Below, in pieces: positions 16,849 through 23,339 of a stretch of DNA of 36,394 nt. How positions within the stretch are numbered: position 1 is the stretch's first letter; every line of letters begins with the position of its first letter. Made by a program: the position numbers and the translations under genes. This stretch comes from Clostridium sp. DSM 8431 (GTDB lineage: Bacteria; Bacillota; Clostridia; Clostridiales; Clostridiaceae): assembly GCF_900116755.1 (NCBI RefSeq), contig NZ_FPBY01000011.1:1-36394 (forward strand). The letters are read 5' to 3'. Under the pieces are notes generated by a model. That model made no database searches. It was not told the origin of the DNA and saw only the letters and a program-made list of their open reading frames with translations.

Positions 16849-18870
16849 ATGAATAAAAATTTAAAAATTGCTATCTTTGCAGGTATAGTTGTAGTAGCTG
16901 CTGCAGCTGCTGGATCAATTTATTTTGTATCAAAAAGTTCTACTAAGGCTGAAATGGTAGTTTCTAATTATTTTGAATTACTTAATAATAAGGAATACTC
17001 AGAAATGTATAAGCTTCTTTCAGAAGAAAGTAAAAGTAAAATTTCAGAAGATGATTTTGTTAAAAGAAACAAAAATATTTATGAAGGAATAGATGCTGAA
17101 AACATTAAAGTTACAATAGGTGACAATAAAAAGGATAAAGGTAATGTTACTATAAACTACGATACTGAAATGAATACAGCAGCAGGGGAATTAAGCTTTT
17201 CAAACTCAGTTGAAGTAGTTAAAGGAGATAATAAGGAATATAACGTTAATTGGTCTTCAAATGTTATTTTTCCAGATTTAGATGATGATAATAAAGTTAG
17301 AATAAATACTAGTAAAGCAAAAAGAGGAAGTATCCTAGATAGGAATGGAAACATTATAGCTAGCGATGGAATAACAGCAAATGTAGGAATAGTACCAGGA
17401 AAACTTGAGAATAAAGATGCAGCTATTAGTTCTTTATCTTCAATTCTTGGAATTTCAGTAGAAGACATAAATTCAAAGTTAAATGCATCTTACGTAACTG
17501 ATACAACTTTTGTACCATTAAAGACTATATCTGATAATGATGCAGAAACTAAGTCAAAGCTTTTACAAATTAAAGGAGTTCAAATTAATGATAAAAGTGC
17601 AAGAGTTTATCCACTAGGACAAACTACAGCCCACTTAACAGGATATGTTCAAGCTGTTACAGCAGAAGATTTAGAAAATTTAAAAGGACAAGGCTATAAT
17701 TCTAATTCTGTAATTGGTAAGTCTGGTCTTGAAAAACTTTATGAAGAAAAGTTAAAAGCTGTTGATGGGGCTGAAATATATATTACTGAAGCTAATGGTA
17801 AAAAGAAAAGTATATTAGTTTCTAAGGAATTACAAAATGGACAAGATGTTAAGCTTACTATAGATACTAATCTTCAAAATAGTCTTTATACTCAGCTTTC
17901 AAATGACAAGGGAGCTGCAGTTGCTATGAACCCTAATACTGGAGAAGTTTTAGCCTTAGTAAGTACACCATCTTATGATCCTAATGACTTCATTTTAGGT
18001 ATGTCAAATGAAAAGTGGGACAGTCTTAATAATGATGCAAACAAACCATTATATAATAGATTTAAGGCGTCCTTTGCACCAGGTTCAACATTCAAGCCTA
18101 TAACAGCAGTAATTGGACTTGAAACTAAAACTTTAGATAAAGATGCTGATAAAAATATAAGTGGATTGTCTTGGCAAAAAGATTCAAGCTGGGGAAGCTA
18201 TAATGTTACAAGAGTTCATGAATATGCTAATGCAAACTTAGATAATGCTTTAATTTATTCAGATAATATTTACTTTGCTATGGCAGCTCTTGATATAGGA
18301 AAAGACAACTTTACTTCTAAGCTTAATAGCTTTGGATTTAATGAGGAATTACCATTTAGCTTTGGTCTTACACCTTCAAGCTATGGAAAAATGGATAGTG
18401 ATGTTAAACTTGCAGATAGTGGATATGGTCAAGCAGAAGTTCTTGTTAATCCAGTTCACTTAGCTACAATGTACACAATGTTTAATAATAATGGAACAAT
18501 GATAAAACCAACTTTAGAATATAAAGCTAATGCAAAGGGCGAAGCATTTAAAGAAAATGTGGCTTCAAAGGACACAATAAATTCAGTTGTTAATGGAATG
18601 GTTCAAGTTGTAGAAAATCCAAATGGAACAGCTCATAATGCTGGAATCCCTGGACTTACTATTGCAGCTAAAACAGGAACAGCAGAAATAAAAGCATCTC
18701 AAGATGATGCTACAGGAACAGAAACAGGATGGTTTGTGGCTACAACTACAAATCAAAATGATAATAATCTTCTAATTGTTTCAATGGCAGAAGATGTGAA
18801 GGACAAGGGAGGAAGCCACTATTTAGTACCTATGGTTAGACAATCAATGGCTTCTTATTATGGAAAATAG
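16849..18870 (+). CDS. Penicillin-binding protein, MecA/NTF2-like transpeptidase (PBP2a/PBP3-like)
   Basis: 673 residues. One N-terminal membrane anchor (5-27), then a MecA-type NTF2-like domain (about 30-145), a PBP dimerisation domain (155-320, with KAKRGSILDRNGNIIA), and the transpeptidase domain (345-670). SxxK is at 413-416 in GSTFK, SxN at 471-473 (SDN) and KTG at 608-610 in KTGTAE. It cross-links peptidoglycan outside the membrane. The NTF2-like domain links it to PBP2a and enterococcal Pbp5-like enzymes that have low beta-lactam affinity, so it could contribute to intrinsic beta-lactam tolerance; this is inference. AAGGGGAG lies 8 nt before the ATG. It has its own terminator. Confidence 0.92.
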   Translation: MNKNLKIAIFAGIVVVAAAAAGSIYFVSKSSTKAEMVVSNYFELLNNKEYSEMYKLLSEESKSKISEDDFVKRNKNIYEGIDAENIKVTIGDNKKDKGNVTINYDTEMNTAAGELSFSNSVEVVKGDNKEYNVNWSSNVIFPDLDDDNKVRINTSKAKRGSILDRNGNIIASDGITANVGIVPGKLENKDAAISSLSSILGISVEDINSKLNASYVTDTTFVPLKTISDNDAETKSKLLQIKGVQINDKSARVYPLGQTTAHLTGYVQAVTAEDLENLKGQGYNSNSVIGKSGLEKLYEEKLKAVDGAEIYITEANGKKKSILVSKELQNGQDVKLTIDTNLQNSLYTQLSNDKGAAVAMNPNTGEVLALVSTPSYDPNDFILGMSNEKWDSLNNDANKPLYNRFKASFAPGSTFKPITAVIGLETKTLDKDADKNISGLSWQKDSSWGSYNVTRVHEYANANLDNALIYSDNIYFAMAALDIGKDNFTSKLNSFGFNEELPFSFGLTPSSYGKMDSDVKLADSGYGQAEVLVNPVHLATMYTMFNNNGTMIKPTLEYKANAKGEAFKENVASKDTINSVVNGMVQVVENPNGTAHNAGIPGLTIAAKTGTAEIKASQDDATGTETGWFVATTTNQNDNNLLIVSMAEDVKDKGGSHYLVPMVRQSMASYYGK

Positions 18871-18950: not shown

Positions 18951-19915
18951 GGTCTTTAATAGAGAAATGTTGGTAAGGTTTGAAAATAATATTTGTGGCA
19001 ATAATGGTATATGAGGTGAATAAAAATGATTAAAGTAGATACTGATTATACTAAATTAAAAGACCATGTAAATGTACTATTAAAGAATAATATCTATGAT
19101 AAAAGAAAGATGGATGAATGTCCTAACTGTAAATCAAAGATATACATAAAGTATGGTAAATTCAATGGAATTCAGCGTTTTAAGTGTAAAGAATGTAAAA
19201 AAACTTTTTCTTTAGCAACTAATTCTATTTGGAGCTATTCTAAAAAGAAACCATCTGATTGGTTTAAATTTTGTGAACTTATTTTAGAGAAAAAAGTATT
19301 GAGGGAATGTTCAAAGATTTTAAATATAAACATTAATACAGCTTTTGCATGGAGGCATAAAGTTTTAGAATCTTTACAAAAAATACAAAGTCAAGTTATG
19401 CTAAAAGGAAACATACATATGACTAAAATTTCTGTAAAAGAGAACTTTAAAGGAAAGAAAAAAATATATACAAATAAAAGAGAAAAAGTACTAGTGGTAT
19501 CAGGGTGTGGGGATATGGATACTATGCTTTTAATTCCACTATGCAAGAGAGTGTGGAGCTTTAAGGAATTTGAGCTAAAGGTTGTTCCTAGAATTAGTGC
19601 AAACTCTAATATTATACCTTATGTGGATAGGTATATTTATTTAGCAGCTAAAAAATATACAGCAGCTTCATATAAGAATATACCAGCTGATAATGAAATT
19701 ATAAAAAACTTTAGGATAATCTATAAAAATTGGTTTAATAGATTTAATGGTGTTGCAACTAAGTATCTATCTCATTATTTATCTTGGTTTGTAATGTTTT
19801 GCAGAGAAAAAATATTTAATGATATAGATCTTTTGTATGAATTAATAGAAAGTTAGTATGATAGTTCTATTTTAATCAGTAGGTAAACTGCAACAACATT
19901 TATTTATGAAAGACC
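18951..19915 (+). mobile_element. IS1595-like insertion sequence with 31-bp imperfect terminal inverted repeats
   Basis: A 965-bp unit. The left end GGTCTTTAATAGAGAAATGT and the inverted right end GGTCTTTCATAAATAAATGT share 24 of 31 positions, including GGTCTTT and AAATGTTG. One transposase gene fills it. No flanking direct repeat of the 8-bp size expected for IS1595-type elements was found (left CTATAGAG, right ACCATGTC), so the insertion is old or the ends are slightly wrong. The same termini recur at 8488, 13917, 23254 and 32999. Confidence 0.75.
19026..19856 (+). CDS. IS1595-family-like transposase with apparently degenerate catalytic residues
   Basis: 276 residues. The N-terminal zinc ribbon has Cys32, Cys35, Cys54 and Cys57, followed by KKTFSLATNSIWSYSKKKPSDWFKF and a helix-turn-helix (LRECSKILNININTAFAWRHKVLESL), as in IS1595/ISXO2-type transposases. 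The C-terminal NWFNRFNGVATKYLSHYLSWF is also typical. But where the family normally has an acidic D-E pair before the KG motif, this protein has Thr133-Lys134 (HMTKISVKENFKGKKK). The usual V-D-R site reads VVSGCGD, and the usual H-x-N third site reads IIKN. A possible Asp201 remains. So the frame is intact but the acidic site seems lost: a dead transposase or one with a changed role. Family comparison is from memory. Confidence 0.7.
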   Translation: MIKVDTDYTKLKDHVNVLLKNNIYDKRKMDECPNCKSKIYIKYGKFNGIQRFKCKECKKTFSLATNSIWSYSKKKPSDWFKFCELILEKKVLRECSKILNININTAFAWRHKVLESLQKIQSQVMLKGNIHMTKISVKENFKGKKKIYTNKREKVLVVSGCGDMDTMLLIPLCKRVWSFKEFELKVVPRISANSNIIPYVDRYIYLAAKKYTAASYKNIPADNEIIKNFRIIYKNWFNRFNGVATKYLSHYLSWFVMFCREKIFNDIDLLYELIES

Positions 19916-20029: not shown

Positions 20030-20067
20030 ATTATTAATGATAAGAGAAGAATAGAGGATTGAAAGAT

Positions 20068-21486
20068 ATGAAGCTGCTAAAAGTACAAGAACGTTTTATT
20101 AAAAGTAAACCTAATGAATACAATATTATAAAAGGAAGATCAAATACAGGGAAAAGTGAAGCTATTTTACATAGAATTTTAAATATGTCTAATAATTTTG
20201 CTTACGAAGAAGAGGATAAAATTCTTGTGGTTCAAAAGGAAAAGAATTCTAAAGATAATTTAGAAAGCAGATATAAAGATGTTAAAAACAAGCATGACTT
20301 TAAATATGTATCTTTACTATCTTCTAAAAATGATCCTGAATTTATAACTCTAAGTAAACTTATTTCAAAATATTCAAATGAAGAAAAAGTAGCTTCTCTA
20401 AAAGAAAAGAAAGATATAGTACTTGAAGTTTTAAATAATAATGAATTTAGATTCTGCAAAAAGCTTAAATCAGAAAATCTTCACCTTATTTTAAGTGAAA
20501 TTAGATTTATGAAAAATAATAAAGTTAAAAGTGAAGAGGACTATTTAAATTTATTAGGAACTCCAATGCGTCTTAGAAGAAAGTCAAAAGCTAGATATGA
20601 TATGTATAACTTTTTTAAAATTTATAATGAAGCTTTACTATCTAAAAATCTTCAAGATGAAGAAGATAAAGTGCTTGAAGCTTTAGAAGAAGTTTTAAGC
20701 CTTAAGACAAAGGGATATGTACATATATTTATTGATAATGTTGAATCCTTATCAAAAATTGAATTAGATTTCCTTTTAAGTTTATATAATAAAAAGACTT
20801 ATGGAAGTGTAAACATGGCAGTTGATATTGATAAAGGAGAAAATATATATTCAGCTCTTGTTAAAAAGGGAAGAGTATATGCTAAGAAGGTTTTTGGAGA
20901 TAATAAGAAAATATTTAATTTTAAAACTGATGTTGCTGAAAGAAATATAAAAAATATTCTTATAAATAATGAAGAAAAGATACTAGATAAGTATGAATTC
21001 TTAGATTTAAAACATAGAAGAGAATTTGACTTTACTCTTGAGGATAATGGTCATGAAGTAAGTTTTGTTGGCGAAGAAAAGGATAAGTACAATAAGGCTG
21101 AGCTAGTGGAAGTGCCAGTGTTTAACAATATTGCAGCTGGGGAACCTATTCTTATAAATCCAACTCAAGAATCGGCTTTCTCTCTTCCAAAGTATTGGGT
21201 TAAGGGCGGAAACAATAAGTTTATACTAAAAATCAAAGGTGATTCTATGATTAATGCCAACATAGATGATGGAGATTTAGTAGTAATAGAACAAAATAAT
21301 TCTCCAGTTAACGGAGAAATAGTGGCAGTTAATATTGATGGAAGTGCTACATTAAAGAGATTTAAAATGGAAAAAGAAAAAGTGCTTTTACTTCCTGAAA
21401 ATGAGAAATATGCACCTATTGAAGTTACTAAAGAACAGGAATTTTTTGTACTTGGAAAGGCTATTGGTGTTATAAAAAGGAAGTAA
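20068..21486 (+). CDS. UvrD-like NTPase domain fused to LexA/S24 autoprotease domain
   Basis: 472 residues from the ATG at 20068, which has AGAGG 10 nt upstream; a TTG at 20059 would add three residues but lies against the site. Residues 1-290 resemble the N-terminal half of UvrD/PcrA: Walker A GRSNTGKS (23-30), Walker B-like IFIDNVESLSKIELDFLL (from 221), and MAVDIDKGENIYSAL where motif III is expected. Motifs V and VI are absent and motif II is DNVE rather than DEaQ, so helicase activity is doubtful. The C-terminal 130 residues are LexA-like: VPVFNNIAAGEPI contains the Ala357-Gly358 cleavage site, GDSM the catalytic Ser393, and ATLKRF Lys430; LLPENEKY and GKAIGVIKRK are typical. There is no N-terminal HTH. 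It is the first gene of a unit with a histidine kinase and response regulator. RecA-stimulated cleavage is inference. Confidence 0.8.
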   Translation: MKLLKVQERFIKSKPNEYNIIKGRSNTGKSEAILHRILNMSNNFAYEEEDKILVVQKEKNSKDNLESRYKDVKNKHDFKYVSLLSSKNDPEFITLSKLISKYSNEEKVASLKEKKDIVLEVLNNNEFRFCKKLKSENLHLILSEIRFMKNNKVKSEEDYLNLLGTPMRLRRKSKARYDMYNFFKIYNEALLSKNLQDEEDKVLEALEEVLSLKTKGYVHIFIDNVESLSKIELDFLLSLYNKKTYGSVNMAVDIDKGENIYSALVKKGRVYAKKVFGDNKKIFNFKTDVAERNIKNILINNEEKILDKYEFLDLKHRREFDFTLEDNGHEVSFVGEEKDKYNKAELVEVPVFNNIAAGEPILINPTQESAFSLPKYWVKGGNNKFILKIKGDSMINANIDDGDLVVIEQNNSPVNGEIVAVNIDGSATLKRFKMEKEKVLLLPENEKYAPIEVTKEQEFFVLGKAIGVIKRK

Positions 21487-21496
21487 GGGAAGGTAA

Positions 21497-22595
21497 ATGG
21501 AGAAAAGGGTAACTGAGCTATATATTTTAATTGTTTTTTTTTTGCATATTATTAATAGGTCAAGATAAGCTAAGTAGTTATGATACTATTATAAATATAA
21601 GTTATGTTATATTTTTAGTTTTGCTAGAGCTTTCAAAATATTTTTTAAAGATAAATAAAAATATTATAAGTATGTTTCAGATTATGATTATTATTATAGT
21701 TAAAATTCAAGGGTTTAGTGCAGTTAATTTATTTATTCCATTAATGGTGTATGAAATATTTAATTGGAGTATTATAAATTTTATAGTTATAATTACGGTT
21801 ATTTCAAGCAATTTTACTTTTTTTAAAGAACCTATAAGTAATGAAATTATATATACAATTTTATTATATTTATATCTTTTTGAAGCTGAAAGCAAGTTTA
21901 AGGATAAAATTGAGCTTAAAAGACTTAATAAACTTCAAGGTCTTCAGAAGGATATGCTTCAGGAAAAGGTAGTTAATATACGAAAATATATGGAGCAGAA
22001 GGATATAACAGCTGCATTAAAAGAAAGAAATTATATGGCACAAAAAATTCACGATCATATGGGGCATAGGGTTACAAGTGCAATAATGCAATTAGAAGTA
22101 GTTAAGGAAACTATGGGAAAAAGTAATGAAATCAGCATGAAATATCTTCTTACTGCTATGGATAGTCTTAGATGTGGTATGGATGAAGTAAGAGAGTTTC
22201 TAAGAAATTCAAAGCCAGGAGAAGGCGTTGTATCTCTTGAAGAAATAAAAAAGGATTTACTATCTTTTCAGTATAGCACTAATATAAAGACTCATATTGA
22301 AATTAAAGGAGATATAAAAAGGTTTAAAACTTCTCAAATTGCAGTAATTCAAGATAATTTAAGAGAAGCTTTAACTAATGCTTCAAAGTATTCTAAAGCC
22401 TCTAATTTATATTTTTCTATTAATGTATATAATAAATTTGCAAGAATAGGTATAAGAGATGATGGAAGAGGCTCTAGTGATATAACTAAAAGTCTTGGAC
22501 TTATGGGGATGGAAGAAAGAATAGAAGCTATTAATGGTAAGATTCAGTTTTATAATGATGAAGGTTTTGTTATTAATATGATTATTAATTTTTAG
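21497..22595 (+). CDS. NarL/LiaS-type sensor histidine kinase, frameshift in poly-T near the start
   Basis: About 365 residues. The native start is very likely ATG 21497, 10 nt after the previous stop with AAGGGAAGG 4-5 nt upstream. In the given sequence this frame dies at 21566 after a run of ten T (21534-21543); removing one T joins it to the kinase frame (read from about 21531). The N-terminal region has about five membrane helices with no large outside domain. Then come HisKA_3 with KIHDHMGHRVTSAIMQLE (phosphorylated His), an N-box in DNLREALTNASKYSKAS and a G-box GIRDDGRGS. It phosphorylates the downstream regulator. The mRNA is probably shared with the NTPase and response-regulator genes. 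Confidence 0.85.
21534..21543 (+). repeat. Poly-T(10) run in the kinase start region
   Basis: Ten T after ATTG. A nine-T run would give a single frame from 21497 and an uninterrupted first membrane helix. Confidence 0.7.
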
Positions 22596-22608
22596 GGGGA
22601 TAGTTTAG

Positions 22609-23229
22609 GTGGCTGTTAAAATTATAATTTGTGATGATGATGCTTTAATAAGGGAAAGTTTAAAGATATTACTTCCTTTAAAAGGTGATGTAGAAGTAGT
22701 TGGAGAAGCCCAAAATGGGCTAGAAGCAGTTACATTATGCAGAGAAAATGAAGTAGATGTAGCTTTAATAGATATACGAATGCCAAAGATGAATGGAGTA
22801 GAGGCAGTACGTGAAATTGTAAGAAATACAAATACTAAGTGTCTTATTCTTACAACCTTTGATGAAGAAGATTATGTTAATGAAGCTCTCTCTTATGGGG
22901 CAAAGGGATATATTTTAAAGAATAACTCGCCAGATCAAATTGTGAATTCAATAAATTCAGTATTTAACGATACAATAGTAATGAATGAAACGATTTTAAG
23001 CAAGATTCAGGGAAATGGTACTAAGAGTCTTTTTAATAATTATGACTTTACCCACAGGGAAAAGGATATAATAATAGCTATAAGTGAAGGCCTTAGCAAT
23101 AAAGAAATAAGCAAGAAACTTTTCATATCTGAAGGAACTGTTAGAAATTATATTACAGCAATTTTAGATAAGACAAGCTTAGAACATAGAACAGCCATTG
23201 CCGTCAACTATTTAAGGGGGAATTTATAG
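22609..23229 (+). CDS. NarL/LuxR-family response regulator
   Basis: 206 residues. The receiver domain (1-118) has the acidic pocket CDDDA, phosphoacceptor Asp55 in ALIDIRMPKMNGVEAV, Thr in ILTTFDEED and Lys in KGYILKN. A GerE/LuxR-type HTH (about 145-205) reads TFHREKDIIIAISEGLSNKEISKKLFISEGTVRNYI with the conserved recognition helix. The start is GTG with GGGGGAT about 8 nt upstream; 13 nt separate it from the kinase stop. It most probably pairs with that kinase. The target genes are unknown; autoregulation or control of the first operon gene is plausible. Confidence 0.92.
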   Translation: MAVKIIICDDDALIRESLKILLPLKGDVEVVGEAQNGLEAVTLCRENEVDVALIDIRMPKMNGVEAVREIVRNTNTKCLILTTFDEEDYVNEALSYGAKGYILKNNSPDQIVNSINSVFNDTIVMNETILSKIQGNGTKSLFNNYDFTHREKDIIIAISEGLSNKEISKKLFISEGTVRNYITAILDKTSLEHRTAIAVNYLRGNL

Positions 23230-23253: not shown

Positions 23254-23339
23254 TCTTTCATGAATAAATGTTGTTATAGTTTATTTAAATATTCTAATAA
23301 TATGATTTTGAAATTTCACCAACATTTATCTATTAAAGA
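23254..23339 (-). mobile_element. MITE of the IS1595-like family (86 bp), reverse orientation
   Basis: The right end TCTTTCATGAATAAATGTTG appears first, and the left end (inverted) CAACATTTATCTATTAAAGA closes it. The two ends share the pattern TCTTT-ATA-AAATGTTG of the IS termini; the interior (about 25-30 bp) is unrelated to the IS. It sits 25 nt after the response-regulator stop and may form a hairpin in its 3' end. Confidence 0.7.

Follow-up and report, generated by a model that had tools for sequence, protein, structure and literature searches.

A short UvrD-LexA fusion protein of Clostridium, apparently descended from a helicase-nuclease with the same predicted self-cleavage switch

Main finding

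In Clostridium sp. DSM 8431, a gene at 20068..21486 (+ strand) of the 36,394-nucleotide stretch analyzed in this study (positions 1 to 36,394 of contig NZ_FPBY01000011.1; hereafter the window) was predicted to encode a protein of 472 amino acid residues, in which half of a UvrD-like helicase is fused to a LexA-type autoprotease domain. Judging from sequence comparison, this short UvrD-LexA fusion (the short form) is the descendant of a rarer, full helicase-nuclease carrying the same LexA-type switch, and its pattern of kept and lost motifs is consistent with a nucleotide-binding pseudo-enzyme joined to a putatively working switch. The results suggest that damage to DNA may inactivate a protein directly and not via gene expression. 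A literature search of titles and abstract openings found no description of a UvrD-LexA fusion, a weak result because subscription papers were mostly beyond its reach.

Domain organization of the window protein

All features of the fusion gene given here are on the + strand. AGAGGA (20053..20058), read from the sequence as ribosome-binding-site-like, is located 9 nt ahead of the ATG. Residues 13–289 (20104..20934) form a UvrD/Rep domain 1A+1B half, residues 301–347 (20968..21108) a linker, and residues 348–472 (21109..21483) a LexA-type autoprotease domain, which was assigned by family matches and structure comparison. The linker aligned with the one ahead of the S24 domain in the long form of the family described below. 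Among the parts listed in this alignment, domain 2A with motifs IV–VI and the nuclease domain were absent from the short form, leaving a gap directly before the linker.

The S24 domain scored 116.5 bits, above the LexA family cut-off (TIGR00498), with the model aligning only from model position 72 onward. In structure comparison, the S24 half was 36–38% identical, over 122–123 residues, to its three top-matching LexA chains of solved structure, and the best structural matches included LexA bound to RecA filaments. The predicted cleavage site Ala357-Gly358 (21136..21141) in NIAAGEPI, the predicted nucleophile Ser393 (21244..21246), and the predicted general base Lys430 (21355..21357) were kept in the window protein and in 43/43 short forms, all of which have IAA followed by Gly at the cut; Ser393 and Lys430 were assigned by motif reading and the short-form alignment. 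The short forms counted here are those of 47 carriers in the genus minus G034, G035, G036, and G047, which are affected by a contig end, a stop, or fragmentation. By predicted fold, family score, and residues, the window protein is an S24 autoprotease for which self-cleavage is predicted, in agreement with the initial annotation, which had named the same residues.

The absence of a repressor HTH, also proposed in that annotation, was borne out by the lack of any HTH family match at E 1. Having neither an HTH nor a LexA box at its gene, the window protein is not a classic repressor, as had been surmised, and is outside the LexA repressors. It shares with them the C-terminal autoprotease domain, the Ala-Gly site, and the Ser/Lys pair, but has a UvrD half where LexA has its HTH domain and a predicted cleavage end of -IAA in place of -VTA or -ITA. 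UmuD and HumD are similar to the fusion in having an S24 autoprotease domain without an HTH; UmuD, however, has merely a short N-terminal tail, whereas the N-terminal part of the fusion is a helicase half of about 300 residues.

Conservation and loss of helicase motifs

Structure prediction, which the initial annotation had recommended, and structure comparison found a UvrD 1A/1B fold in the N-terminal half. With this fold and no HTH match, neither of the two outcomes that would have refuted that annotation arose. The motif losses agreed with the degenerate UvrD-like half proposed there on the basis of Walker A GRSNTGKS (residues 23–30; 20134..20157) and the Walker B-like IFIDNVES (residues 220–227; 20725..20748). 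Among the short forms, Gln7 (20086..20088), belonging to what we take to be the Q motif, was Gln in 43/43, the Walker A Lys was found in 42/43, and the motif II Asp in 40/43, while the catalytic Glu was found in 4/43; IFIDNVES is a decayed motif II with Asn224 at the position of this Glu. In motif Ia, presumably a DNA-contact motif, the window protein has Q56 and K57, in comparison with T and Y/F in the 8 long forms compared. Because the motif II Glu was kept in 4/6 short forms from other Clostridiaceae genera, the decay seems to have been gradual, and loss of hydrolysis is probably not universal among the short forms.

The N-terminal half resembles a UvrD half that has lost 2A by internal deletion, most members also being without the catalytic Glu, and can probably no longer hydrolyze ATP or translocate. 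It is similar to the UvrD/PcrA/Rep helicases (PF00580, PF13361) in its 1A+1B fold, Q motif, and Walker A, but the short form has no 2A and hence no motifs IV–VI, and the motif II Glu has been lost in 39/43. With neither 2A nor the catalytic Glu, the window protein is placed outside the UvrD helicases, and the motif losses led us to reject an active ATPase or helicase for most members. The best reading of the half is a module that binds nucleotide and serves as the cargo of a self-cutting switch. The suggestion that it senses damage or ssDNA is too simple; the likely sensor is RecA on ssDNA, acting through the LexA domain.

Short and long forms of the family

Some match was obtained in 66/68 genomes of the genus, many of them to ordinary LexA, and the short form, read by architecture, was present in at least 47/68. 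Among these 47 carriers, one copy had an internal stop and one was in pieces. A long form of about 815 residues was found in 8 genomes of the genus and a form without S24 in 6 (L052–L057). The latter are UvrD helicases, with HSDR_N_2 present in L053 and absent from L054 and L057, and some of them may be broken long forms.

In the two long-form proteins scanned, UvrD_N, UvrD_C, HSDR_N_2 (which we take to be a PD-(D/E)XK-type domain), and Peptidase_S24 were found in a single chain. A set of 42 long forms was compared, in which L166 and L167, drawn from a different collection, are duplicates of two other genes in the set. By a pattern-based reading, with motif names as we understand them, helicase motifs I, II, III, IV, and VI were intact in 42/42 and motif V in 41. 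The S24 Ser and Lys, the motif II Glu, and the nuclease Asp were each present in 42/42, and the nuclease ExK in 41/42. The scissile Gly was replaced in 2/42, namely L044 (genome G028) and L064 (Ilyobacter), which have ISAD and VSGD in the alignment and keep Ser and Lys; these two are perhaps uncleavable. Predicted structures of the long form (three sequences) had a mean pLDDT of 38 and were not used.

A family search at E 1e-60, pooling all forms, found matches in 48/146 genomes at a threshold that missed the window's own gene. In a phylum sample, 17/398 genomes matched at E 1e-60, 14 of them across the full length. Ilyobacter polytropus (Fusobacteriota) carries the long form under the generic annotation 'S24 family peptidase', and this long form, on plasmid pILYOP01, was the one record among 3723 matching plasmid records that covered 80% of the query. 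A phage origin of the short form was rejected, as 101/50,697 phage records matched, all of them over less than 80% of the query. With the window protein, pattern-based scans of IMG/VR found no match; the long-form alignment gave three, all weak and UvrD-type.

Ancestry and selection

The short form apparently arose once, within Clostridiaceae, by internal deletion of a restriction- or defence-type helicase-nuclease bearing this switch. In the N-terminal-half tree (83 rows, quick search), 41 short forms were located on one side of a branch with a starred support of 100, and branches with unstarred supports of 82–94 put their clade inside the long forms of the genus, some rows being long. In a tree of the S24 domain only, long and short forms grouped together, apart from LexA (99, starred), and the short forms were not recovered as one clade (3 changes). 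The trees leave out L020, L036, L059, L061, and 6/42 long forms, presumed to be near-duplicates, and include two added short forms from named species, the only ones from other genera.

Short-form distances tracked LexA distances from the same 35 genomes (r 0.74; 0/2000 permutations as high), as mostly vertical descent would predict. Identity to the window protein in 34 other genomes was 26–58% for the N-terminal half and 43–84% for S24; the Clostridium cibarium relative (L159) is 66% identical. Between the window gene and its closest relative, L003, dN was 0.21 and dS 0.95 for residues 1–300, and dN was 0.08 and dS 1.7 for residues 349–472. Because dN was far below dS in each, both halves appear to be under purifying selection, with the protease half more constrained.

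Regulation and genomic context

Upstream of the lexA genes of the genus, GAAC-N4-GTTT was found in 35/36 readable cases, mostly 50–90 nt before the start; 40 regions were fetched, 4 had no recognized ORF, and the lone exception was at a contig end. Among 57 family genes (43 short, 8 long, and 6 without S24), scanned over 300 nt upstream and the first 60 nt, 6 had a site within one mismatch of GAAC-N4-GTTC, one of them exact, and the window gene had none. LexA-box regulation of the fusion genes is thus unsupported. The whole window contained 3 sites of this type with at most one mismatch, versus 5.9 expected, and a promoter scan gave 15 sites versus 11.9 in shuffles.

A NarL-type two-component pair (21531–23229) is encoded on the same strand, 45 bp 3′ of the fusion gene, and the + strand between them has no terminator-like site; the pair was not among the families common to at least 4 of 20 short-form loci. 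On the other side, 16849–18870 encodes a penicillin-binding protein (PBP) that contains a MecA_N domain and falls close to the PBP4(5) family (645 bits versus a cut-off of 700). A PBP-family gene also adjoins the short form in the closest relative (L115, G038) and was inside the fetched stretch in 3/20 relatives. An IS1/IS1595-like transposase ORF (19026–19856) is located within a putative element (18953–19913) flanked on both sides by imperfect inverted repeats of the TCTTT..AAATGTTG type, pieced together from repeat pairs I1 and I2 and direct repeat D7, the pair itself being absent from the 25 listed; the element would stop about 155 bp short of the fusion gene. The same terminal repeats face each other in the 86-bp region 23254–23339, which is MITE-like for this element. 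The repeat search around the fusion gene found nothing bearing on that gene.

A conserved short-form operon was rejected, as none of the neighboring gene families recurred in a majority of the 20 loci. The most frequent one, of about 311 residues, occurred at varying positions in 9/20 loci, and a family of about 400 residues adjoined the short form in 4/20, on either side. Transport and metabolic Pfam families were the commonest among 120 proteins within 3.5 kb of the short form (best 25 of 151 families); methylpurine-DNA glycosylase was found in 3/120 of these proteins (L115–L134; within the same best 25 of 151).

Among 101 proteins near the long form in 20 loci, ResIII (8), SWI2/SNF2 (7), NERD (6), HRDC (6), DUF3427 (4), and PLDc (4) were prominent, and ordinary genes such as MatE and MCP ranked lower (best 25 of 121 families). 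A NERD-HRDC gene adjoined the long form in 6/20 loci (L135, L136:5816-6886, L138, L139, L140, and L141), and its product and the long helicase-nuclease-S24 protein are a possible two-gene system. Gene names and positions suggest that the long form is an accessory gene of restriction or defence type and that the short form derives from it by domestication. In a PADLOC search of the family proteins and one neighbor, the long form matched GajB models of Gabija (best 134.9 bits) and a NERD+UvrD model, which general UvrD kin may match likewise; unlike these defence proteins, it carries a nuclease domain and S24 on a single polypeptide. No PADLOC model, GajB included, matched the window protein at E 0.001.

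Fate of the predicted cleavage fragment and proposed function

The predicted N-terminal fragment ends in -IAA in 43/43 short forms. Of 36 LexA proteins of the same genus, the 35 with a readable site have [VI]TA|G and would end in -ITA or -VTA, and long forms end in -IAA in 30/42 and in -VAA in 4/42. According to a study of Clostridium thermocellum (PMC12203970), ClpXP degraded the -IAA-ended fragments of RsgI3 and RsgI8, whereas three other Clp proteases did not, an -FAA-ended fragment resisted ClpXP, and an -SVA-ended one was degraded, so that, in these cases, two Ala residues were neither needed nor sufficient. By this analogy, -IAA is a credible degron, LexA's -VTA may serve as one too, and the contrast between the two is weaker than it looks. 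The P2 Ala may also be conserved for the cleavage loop. In Escherichia coli and Staphylococcus aureus, the LexA N-terminal fragment is cleared with Clp proteases (PMC10584840), and clpX and recA are both present in the window genome.

Sequence and predicted structure show the domains and catalytic residues, the loss of motifs, the relationship to the long form, the lack of a LexA box, and purifying selection. On top of these, there is about an even chance that the fusion is a damage-labile pseudo-helicase that acts as a brake in healthy cells and is removed post-translationally by the SOS signal. Its N-terminal half would bind nucleotide and a target, and the LexA-type domain would keep the protein dimeric. 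RecA filaments on ssDNA would induce the LexA-type domain to cut itself at Ala357-Gly358, freeing the N-terminal half and exposing -IAA as an ssrA-like tail, and ClpXP would destroy the tailed half, so that the brake would be gone after damage. Dimerization, nucleotide binding, and the brake role are steps that we infer, as are the RecA trigger and the ClpXP executor, the last two because of the -IAA end, the Clp precedents, and the presence of clpX and recA. Release of the N-terminal half by cleavage, as the initial annotation had it, is possible in itself, though the conserved -IAA end points rather to its destruction.

Cleavage could alternatively activate the protein, with the freed N-terminal half or a trimmed LexA-type dimer contributing to repair or to the tolerance of damage. 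Cleavage activates the S24 protein UmuD, the fragments of the fusion would part in the same way, and an NCBIfam UmuD-type subfamily matched at 81.7 bits, though under its cut-off of 110. We consider this unlikely, since the conserved -IAA end, on the degradation data above, predicts an unstable N-terminal fragment, and the window gene has no LexA box, whereas umuD-type genes are usually SOS-induced. Slightly less probable still is a RecA-independent switch, in which nucleotide binding or ligand loss in the N-terminal half sets off self-cleavage. Kept nucleotide-binding residues with decayed hydrolysis residues would suit such a sensor, and the N-terminal domain of IrvR, an S24 relative departing from RecA dependence, is reported to mediate its autocleavage (PMC7101444). 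However, the S24 domain of the fusion scored above the cut-off of the LexA family, LexA being RecA-responsive, and its best structural matches include LexA on RecA filaments.

It is improbable that the fusion is a transcription repressor using the UvrD half in place of an HTH as its DNA binder. The LexA C-terminal half is conserved, and UvrD 1A/1B domains touch DNA in full helicases, but no HTH family matched, motif Ia is altered in the window protein, and the DNA-binding cleft is incomplete without 2A. Least probable of all is a nonfunctional, decaying relic of the long helicase. Motif decay, the fast N-terminal half, and the stopped and fragmented copies would suit it, but the short form is present in at least 47/68 genomes, dN is well under dS in both halves (window versus L003), the S24 residues are kept in 43/43, and distances track those of LexA.

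The damage-labile brake can be extended, more tentatively and with doubt somewhat outweighing confidence, to an SOS output bypassing transcription: on the RecA signal, the domesticated pseudo-helicase would cut itself, expose a ClpXP tail, and a brake on DNA metabolism would vanish soon after damage, the ancestral helicase-nuclease-LexA protein having been a nuclease against invaders, fitted with a switch through which RecA would trigger its self-destruction (or arm it). LexA, UmuD, and phage repressors are the proteins that usually undergo RecA-stimulated self-cleavage. If a helicase-nuclease and its widespread domesticated fragment do so as well, the SOS signal would reach DNA enzymes directly, beyond gene control, and be tied to defence.
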